Positions 17,493 through 38,940 of a stretch of 58,975 nucleotides of DNA are shown here, one piece after another (position 1 is the first letter of the stretch; every line of letters starts with the position of its first letter). Source of the stretch: Collinsella sp. AK_207A (GTDB lineage Bacteria; Actinomycetota; Coriobacteriia; Coriobacteriales; Coriobacteriaceae). The DNA lies in contig NZ_CABWID010000005.1 of assembly GCF_902501965.1 (NCBI RefSeq), positions 1 through 58,975 on the forward strand. Direction: 5' to 3'. The notes beneath the pieces were generated by a model. The model saw only the letters and a program-made list of their open reading frames with translations. It ran no database searches and had not been told where the DNA came from. Both the position numbers and the translations under genes were made by a program.

Positions 17493-17515
17493 AACCACAC
17501 CCGGCAGCAGGCACG

Positions 17516-17724
17516 CCGGCTCGAACGGCACGCGGGGTCGCCGGCGGCGCCTTCCGAGCGAACTGAGGATTCCTTCCCGAGAAGGCGCGGGAACGGGCAG
17601 CGGTATTGGGCACGTAACTGACACGGCGCCCATCCTCGTTTTGCCCGTTCCCGCACCTTCTCGGGAAGGAATTCCAGTCTCGCGAGGACCAGCCGCTGGC
17701 GACCCCGCGTGCCGTCCGAGCCGG
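17516..17724. repeat. Long imperfect palindrome, element A
   Basis: Outer arms at 17516-17545 and 17695-17724 are nearly perfect reverse complements. Inner arms at 17572-17599 and 17642-17669 match at 27 of 28 positions. Between them lie AGCGAACTGA (left) and CCAGTCTCGCGAGGAC (right), two motifs shared with the palindrome at 25594-25708. The central loop is 42 bases. It lies between a small unknown gene and folB. Confidence 0.85.
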
Positions 17725-17739
17725 GCGCGACAGCCGCCG

Positions 17740-25511: not shown

Positions 25512-25593
25512 GCGCGATTCCCCCTACAAGTCCGGTAACGTCTCAACCCCGTCACCCCATCGGGTCCTATTGTTCTCTTTCACCAACGCGGCC

Positions 25594-25708
25594 GTGGCGG
25601 TCGGTCGGGTTTCCCTGGGGCGACCTCCGCAGCGAACTGAACAAACACCGAAGGCGTTTGCCAGTCTCGCGAGGACTGAACCCCGGGGAAATCCCGACCA
25701 CCCCCCAC
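25594..25708. repeat. Long imperfect palindrome, element B
   Basis: Outer arms at 25594-25620 and 25681-25708 share GGTCGGG, TTTCCC and GGGG in mirrored order. Internally AGCGAACTGA (25631-25640) and CCAGTCTCGCGAGGAC (25661-25676) flank a small CAAAC/GTTTG hairpin. These two motifs are the same as in the element at 17516-17724. It lies between ilvC and ilvA and may end or attenuate the ilv transcript. Confidence 0.8.
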
Positions 25709-25724
25709 GCCCAGGCCAGCGTTC

Positions 25725-26720
25725 TTACTTCTTGATCCAGCTGAACATGGAGCGGATCTTCTCGCCCGTCTTCTCGATCGGGTGGCTGTTGATGGCCTCG
25801 CGCTGCTCGAGCAGCCACTTGTGGCCGTTGTTGCAGTCGTCCACGAACTCCTGGGCGAAGGAGCCGTCCTGAATGCGGGCCAGAATCTCCTTCATGGCGC
25901 GGCGGCTCTCGGCGTTGATGACCTTGGGGCCGGCGTAGTACTCGCCGTACTCGGCGGTGTTGGAGATGGAATAGTTCATGAAGTGGATGCCGCTCTCGTA
26001 CATGAGGTCGACGATCATCTTCATCTCGTGGTAGACCTCGAAGTAGGCCAGCTCCTCGGGGTAGCCCGCCTCGGTGAGGGTCTCGAAGCCCGCCTTGATC
26101 ATCTCGACCAGGCCGCCGCAGAGCACGGCCTGCTCGCCGAAGAGGTCCTCCTCGGTCTCATCCTTGAAGGTGGACTTGATGAGACCGGAGCGCGCGCCGC
26201 CGAGGCCCCAGGCGTAGCTCATCGCCACATCCCAAGCGTCGCCGGTGGCGTCCTGCTGCACGCACACCAGGTCGGGCACACCGGAGCCCTCGGTGTACTG
26301 ACGGCGGACGATGTGGCCCGGGCCCTTGGGGGCGACCATGATGACGTTCACGTCCTCGGGGGCCTTGATGTAGCCGTAGTGGATGTTGAAGCCGTGGGCG
26401 AAGGCCAGCGTGTCACCGGGCTTGAGGTGTTTGGCGATGTGCTCCTCGTACACCTTGGGCTGGGTCTCGTCCGGGGTGAGGATCATGATGACGTCGGCTT
26501 CCTCGGCCGCGGTGTCCACGTCCACCACCTTGAGGCCGGCCTCGCGCGCCTTCTCGGCGGAGGCGGAACTCTCGCGCAGGCCGACGCGCACGTCCACGCC
26601 GGAATCCATGAGGTTCAGCGCATGGGCGTGGCCCTGGGAGCCGTAGCCGATGATGGCCACCTTCTTGCCCTGGATGACCTCCGGCTTGCAGTCCTTCTCG
26701 TAAAAGATCTCAACGGCCAT
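25725..26720 (-). CDS. ilvC: Ketol-acid reductoisomerase
   Basis: IlvC isomerises and reduces acetolactate or acetohydroxybutyrate to the dihydroxy acids of valine and isoleucine synthesis. The 331-residue class I enzyme has the NAD(P)H loop [14 protein letters not shown], the [10 protein letters not shown] segment, and the acidic magnesium sites [16 protein letters not shown] and FEVYHEMK. Length is typical. It is the last gene of the ilvD-ilvB-ilvN-ilvC cluster. Confidence 0.98.
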
Positions 26721-32082: not shown

Positions 32083-32100
32083 GTTGGAAGCTCCCTTGAA

Positions 32101-32211
32101 GGACGGGTCGGGAGCACCGCCCGTCGCTCGGTCAGTCCTGCCCGCACGGAGGCGCCCCAGGCGCCTCCGACTCGTGCGGAATCTACGACGGGCGGCGCTC
32201 CCGACCCGTCC
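32101..32211. repeat. Long near-perfect hairpin between thrC and thrB (element D)
   Basis: The arms at 32101-32126 and 32186-32211 match at 25 of 26 positions. A second stem inside pairs CCGCAC (32142-32147) with GTGCGG (32174-32179) and GGAGGCGCC (32148-32156) with GGCGCCTCC (32160-32168). It fills nearly all of the intercistronic space. It could reduce thrB expression relative to thrC, or be another member of the palindrome family. Confidence 0.85.
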
Positions 32212-32226
32212 GCCTCGTATCCCCTT

Positions 32227-38822: not shown

Positions 38823-38940
38823 GACGCCCGGGCCGAGCCGCAGGAACGCACTGAACGAATACGTCGTACGCGGTCGATGCCGCGACGGTACCGCAGTGCG
38901 TTCCCAGGCTTGGCCCGGGCGTCTTCTCAGTTCGCTCGGA
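38823..38940. repeat. Long imperfect palindrome, element C
   Basis: GACGCCCGGGCC (38823-38834) and GGCCCGGGCGTC (38912-38923) are the outer arms, and GGAACGCACTG and CAGTGCGTTCC the inner ones. The inner left arm, GCACTGAACGAATAC, resembles GAACTGAACAAACAC of element B. TCAGTTCGCTCGG at 38927-38939 is the reverse complement of the CCGAGCGAACTGA core of element A. Confidence 0.75.

Follow-up and report, generated by a model that had tools for sequence, protein, structure and literature searches.

A candidate 3'-end RNA element with a fixed internal loop and covarying arms in Collinsella sp. AK_207A and other Coriobacteriales

The window analysed here, a stretch of 58,975 nucleotides from Collinsella sp. 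AK_207A (contig NZ_CABWID010000005.1, positions 1 to 58,975), contains two long intergenic palindromes, named element A and element B (Table 1). Element A occupies 17502-17739 on the minus strand, and re-reading of the coordinates bore out the arms and cores that the original prediction had placed there. Element B (25590-25712) was likewise found, as predicted, to carry both core motifs of element A in the same order between unlike outer arms. The folB and ilvC genes lead into elements A and B respectively; therefore, the minus strand of the window is the working strand. In this sense, both elements have the order arm, GUCCUC, inner hairpin, UGCGGA and complementary arm (arm'). Between the inner arms of element A (17569..17672) is a second internal motif, common to the long class of elements described below.

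Two degenerate members of the same family were found in the window with a covariance model of the short class, at 32100-32212 (32.4 bits) and 38823-38929 (32.9 bits). The first is located between the genes for threonine synthase and a GHMP kinase, both on the minus strand. In the second, one core half (CAGTTCGCT, 38928-38936) is found outside the arms, and a cobW-like gene lies nearby. On the sequence of the window by itself, support for the motif is weak, because as many matches were obtained from 22 of 100 shuffled sequences for the right core (up to three mismatches) and from 2 of 100 for the exact left core.

Table 1. Features of the palindromic elements in the window
Feature	Position	Strand	Remarks
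Element A, proximal outer arm	17692-17739	-	Adjoins folB stop codon 17740-17742
Element A, core half 1	17674-17689	-	CCAGTCTCGCGAGGAC on + strand, GTCCTCGCGAGACTGG in sense
Element A, inner arms	17569-17599 and 17642-17672	-	Complementarity 97%
Element A, core half 2	17557-17566	-	AGCGAACTGA on + strand
Element A, distal outer arm	17502-17548	-	
Element B, proximal outer arm	25681-25712	-	ilvC stop codon at 25725-25727
Element B, core half 1	25661-25676	-	Same core as element A
Element B, short inner hairpin	25641-25660	-	
Element B, core half 2	25631-25640	-	Sense TGCGGA runs on to 25625
Element B, distal outer arm	25590-25620	-	
Degenerate member	32101..32211		26-nt arms (96%), GTCCT...TGCGGA on + strand
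Degenerate or truncated long-class member	38823..38936		Arms 38823-38839 / 38907-38923

In the 2.12-Mb genome as a whole, the 16-mer CCAGTCTCGCGAGGAC has 15 exact copies, for about 0.001 expected with uniform bases, and the right core with up to three mismatches has 67 matches versus 35 for a reversed control pattern. Thus, the recurrence of the core across the genome is not a matter of chance. Twenty-seven copies with both cores were read, of which 14 belong to the short class (spacer 21-22 nt), 12 to the long class (spacer 106-108 nt) and one has a spacer of 46; the palindrome test was passed by 25 of these 27. The covariance model, made from 13 short copies, returned 24 rows in its own genome, which correspond to 21 places, three being one place on both strands. 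Together with the 12 long copies, this gives at least 33 elements. Elements A and B are therefore part of a larger repeated family, in agreement with the original prediction, and not two of a few copies only. The 14 short copies are very similar in their cores and inner hairpins and unlike in their outer arms, which in this genome differ between copies. Outer arms are 14-67 nt long, and the spacers between the 8-nt core halves range from 2 to 122 nt.

The placement of the family relative to genes is also regular. In the motif orientation first described, the right-hand gene is mostly directed toward the element and has its stop codon close to it. For a wider count, 107 palindromic copies were assembled: 25 from this genome, 37 from records of Collinsella and other Coriobacteriaceae, and 45 from a broader sampling of the order and phylum. 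These copies were picked by the core pattern, include orthologues and are not independent. In 66 of the 107, the core is preceded at 15-80 nt by the stop codon of a sense open reading frame no shorter than 150 codons, and an antisense frame satisfying the same criterion is present in 25 (18 copies have frames on both strands and 34 on neither). The antisense count serves as a control, because GC-rich DNA gives long open frames by chance. Among the 41 copies with no qualifying sense frame, seven have an antisense frame only, and some lie in short stretches of sequence. The distance from stop codon to core in the 66 sense copies has a median of 45 nt, with 64 of them at 30-70 nt; antisense distances (n = 25) likewise fall at 28-79 nt.

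The genes that end in an element are housekeeping genes. They encode a chaperonin, in this genome and two other members of the order, and an aldolase, here and in one further genome, as well as proteins identified by Pfam as LeuA-like, ThiC, UvrC, GcpE and sigma-70. The genes for FolB and ketol-acid reductoisomerase end in the same way. The GroEL and aldolase genes end in an element in several lineages. Tandem copies were found in single intergenic regions at L080/L136 (G024 C10:159985 and 160109) and at L150 (G065 C2:395027 and 395250); the arms of the L150 pair are unlike between the two copies, and each is paired. At L004 (G000 C18:60052-60102), the right half of a long-class element stands by itself, and a complete short element in the opposite orientation is located about 200 nt away.

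Pairing of the arms was examined column by column. In the 13 short copies, 94.9% of cells pair, compared with 28.0-38.3% when the partners are slid by one to three columns. Both sides have changed in 73 cells, a number above that of all 500 shuffles, and at least one such change is present in 16 of the 17 outer pairs. In the 12 long copies, both-side changes were counted, without a slid control, in 43 of 60 predicted pairs. Covariation among paralogous copies is ambiguous, because arms of independent origin would give the same picture.

Orthologous sequences were available at the 3' end of fba, where 21 of 43 genomes each have a single copy of a different core, core B (GCTCACCTG...CAGAAGTCGC), located 55-57 nt past the fba match. 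Core B had been considered as a second dispersed family and was rejected as such, since it is a single copy per genome and always at fba. The 19 distinct fba 3' ends that were compared all contain core B, so that this test concerns core B and not GUCCUC/UGCGGA. They showed 99.1% pairing and 31 both-side cells, a number reached by none of 500 shuffles, with slid partners giving 0-3. Pointing in the opposite direction, the number of both-side pairs was reached by 75 of 500 shuffles and the number of pair types by all 500. On the sense strand of fba, there are 17 G-U versus 5 A-C cells, several of them inherited together.

Mismatches in the outer arms were counted in the same manner, and 1615 of the 1697 pairs counted are Watson-Crick. 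A strict set of 62 copies gave 39 G-U versus 29 A-C (p 0.28), divided as 17 to 7 in this genome and 22 to 22 elsewhere. RNA-level selection is not visible in these outer-arm counts from 62 copies, and the G-U versus A-C test was dropped as an argument. Less strict counts, which had pointed to no RNA bias, gave 40 G-T to 38 A-C (plus strand, 27 copies; looser scoring that let alignments extend into noise), 32 to 29 (a set short of copies due to a short de-duplication key) and 65 to 75 (looser scoring of the same kind, with false positives). Terminator-like hairpins gave 101 G-U to 53 A-C and differed from the elements in one version of the comparison (Fisher p 0.001).

The scarcity of arm mismatches and the non-significant G-U excess in the strict set are what might be expected of a DNA-level hairpin or cruciform, recognised as single-stranded DNA in recombination, in replication or as an uptake signal, and with template switching as the source of new arms. 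Such an origin is very improbable in view of the gene polarity, the regular distance from stop codons and the sense-strand excess of G-U in the fba orthologues. A palindrome-renewing DNA process is nevertheless conceivable, because the arm runs through the stop codon in 4 of the 66 sense copies. One of these, at the 3' end of uvrC (L007, G000 C14 near 32198), is an inverted repeat of 54 nt with no mismatch, the proximal arm of which takes in the uvrC stop codon and the last five codons.

Two versions of the core must be distinguished with respect to lineage. The exact extended core of the short class was found in one of 58 genomes, namely this one, and an initial scan of contigs for it gave no matches. 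A minimal core, which matched 24 stretches in a first scan, is far more widespread. The short-class covariance model identified a single member per genome in four further genomes of the genus, with TCCGCAGCG...CGAGGAC or near variants, that is, GTCCTC...TGCGGA in sense. The pattern GTCCTCGC-N(1-31)-GCTGCGGA matches at least once in 70 of 149 Coriobacteriales genomes, with the highest counts per genome being 30, then 15 in two genomes, 13 and 12, and 0-3 per genome for its reversed control. These tallies include chance matches: among 62 places listed, 44 pass the palindrome test and 18 fail, and most of the 18 look like chance. In the passing copies, most inserts form a hairpin, and neither this hairpin nor the arms have a set sequence. 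The minimal core in locus-specific palindromic arms is thus a recurrent feature of the Coriobacteriales. Presence throughout the phylum was rejected, since most inserts form no hairpin among the matches listed from a sample of 198 genomes. Palindromic copies in that sample were found in G187, G233 and G289; G333 and G273 failed the palindrome test.

Of the two readings originally offered for the palindromes, that of a conserved RNA with covarying arms is supported by the pairing in the short class, the fixed polarity after stop codons and the order-wide core. The other, a REP- or MITE-like element with a RAYT transposase, is not supported by the six RAYT loci examined or by the arms, which are not common to the copies; spread within the genome is nevertheless likely, as discussed below.

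A position just beyond stop codons is that of intrinsic terminators, which are likewise GC-rich sense hairpins 15-80 nt past a stop codon. At ilvC, 10 relatives have a readable 3' end, and none of them has the core; all 10 have a hairpin there, followed by four or more T in five (judged by eye). Similarly, in 29 relatives no core was seen over the 230 nt following the stop codon of the sigma-70 gene, so identified from its domains. Thus, at both genes the element occupies the site of a terminator-like hairpin in relatives. The 3' UTRs of these relatives are too diverged for insertion junctions to be defined. A classical terminator is present within 170 nt of the stop codon in 21 of the 29 sigma-70 relatives lacking the element, a control that covers this one gene only. 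Element-bearing genes usually lack a second one: a further classical terminator was found in the 150 nt after the element at 3 of 66 such genes, and none in 330 random windows. In the sigma-70 copy of this genome, TTTTT follows the outer stem, which gives the impression of a terminator invaded by a core.

Of the 29 relatives compared at fba, 25 have a composite hairpin that starts 20-24 nt after the stop codon, one has a mismatched version of it and in three it is missing. By eye, the exact core is present in one of these relatives and TGCGGG replaces TGCGGA in three. U-rich tails at fba in relatives read TTCGTTT or TGCGTTT. Such U-rich tails, together with the terminator position, could be explained by ordinary intrinsic terminators with unusually long stems, in which the common core is merely inherited or coincidental. 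This explanation is improbable, as a mismatched internal loop is kept across the Coriobacteriales in freely varying stems and the U-tract is mostly missing. Of 101 copies, 7 have at least five T among the 8 nt that follow the distal arm, and 20 have at least four. The fixed internal loop GUCCUC/UGCGGA, the nested inner hairpin and the 14-67-nt outer arms also set the elements apart from intrinsic terminators.

Spread of the core within the genome is likely, because the extended core is confined to one of 58 genomes and yet has many similar copies there. An extended core that is species-specific and sits in unlike arms argues either that the core was copied into hairpins already present or that one core was converted by another. 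These facts, along with the sigma-70 copy followed by TTTTT whose 29 relatives have no core, and the arms that run through stop codons, could also be produced by a miniature mobile DNA element of the REP or MITE kind with no flanking RAYT. Its core would be copied into the loops of terminator hairpins, or its arms made at insertion, and any effect on 3' ends would be a by-product. We regard this as unlikely, though less so than the two alternatives above. A Y1_Tnp domain was found in 8 of 12 genomes (15 matches); at the six RAYT loci read of these 15, no palindromic core lies within about 1.5 kb, and only two loose core matches, without palindromic arms, were seen. Carriage by phages was rejected, since no viral contig matched either of two exact core patterns. 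The order-wide core, the fixed polarity after stop codons and the recurrence at GroEL and aldolase genes better suit a function. A mixture of a functional module and copying is possible and compatible with the data.

The elements resemble REP and BIME sequences in being dispersed extragenic palindromes with internal mismatches that are amplified in particular species. REP repeats are described as short, with a GTAG or CGTC tag at one end (PMC3733652). Here, the central core is kept while the arms differ, so that the REP hallmark of one palindrome sequence in all copies does not apply to the unlike outer arms in this genome.

DNA uptake sequences number thousands of copies. In this respect the elements, with tens of copies, are unlike them; in addition, their core halves are not mutual inverted repeats, and the motif tracks hairpin geometry, at spacers of 2 to 122 nt. 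The resemblance is to uptake sequence pairs in Neisseria and Haemophilus, which also place a common motif inside terminator hairpins (PMC2267715).

A scan of the window with Rfam 15 (cmscan) returned tRNAs only. A permissive scan of 25 distinct further loci returned four miRNA/sRNA matches, all below the gathering score. The L17 downstream element (RF01708), a candidate structured RNA in 3' UTRs (PMC2864571), is similar in position and differs in being tied to one gene. Collinsella-1 (RF01700) is another candidate structured RNA, listed for Actinobacteria and human gut in the same source. Neither family was among the matches in the window or the 25 loci. Listings from literature searches contained no account of the GUCCUC/UGCGGA motif. 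One study (PMC8040213) reports 250 palindromic candidate RNAs from human microbiomes, 230 of them predicted to form terminators, and its set may hold parts of the present family as an unnamed entry. The element appears to be an RNA element without prior description.

The reading that we consider probable, on the evidence of position, polarity, pairing, lineage and the usual lack of a second classical terminator, is a 3'-end RNA element, namely a terminator-like hairpin mostly without a U-tract, with the fixed internal loop as a putative protein dock. Past the stop codon, the transcript would fold into a long composite hairpin, in which the asymmetric internal loop is fixed as GUCC-UC / UGC-GGA and the sequences of the outer stem and the inner hairpin are free to vary. 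This outer stem would take the place of an ordinary terminator hairpin and may end or protect the mRNA there. The fixed loop most likely docks a protein. The extended core, in turn, may have spread into terminator hairpins that already existed.

This reading can be extended, tentatively and with less confidence than the element itself, to a separate class of factor-assisted 3' ends in the Coriobacteriales. In this class, a hairpin without a working U-tract would recruit a lineage-specific protein by its GUCCUC/UGCGGA loop, and the loop would act as a portable module, with a core multiplied in one species and seated in the hairpins of unrelated genes. If the loop does recruit a factor, it would represent a route to mRNA 3' ends in common gut actinobacteria. 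Programs that search for terminators can miss such ends, as the U-tract is mostly absent. A fixed loop between freely varying stems is also a ready bait for a partner protein, and the species-specific extended core makes the copying of an RNA module between unrelated gene ends testable.

Other inverted repeats were observed near gene ends. In other Collinsella genomes, very long inverted repeats with no core are present in the 3' regions of sigma-70 genes (L297, L304, L307 and L309) and of fba (L324), within 200 nt past the stop codon; their arms are 30-44 nt, and some have loops of 4-5 nt. A second kind of intergenic inverted repeat, on CCGATACTTTA / TAAAGTATCGG, was found at L183, L184, L189 and L190 (G000 C10) and recurs within the 400 kb examined. 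Palindromes with the related cores GTCCTCGGAC...GTCCTGCGGA and AAGTCCTG...TGCGGAATC were found in G024 (L200, L208 and L217), and the inner hairpin of one of them resembles a bidirectional terminator.
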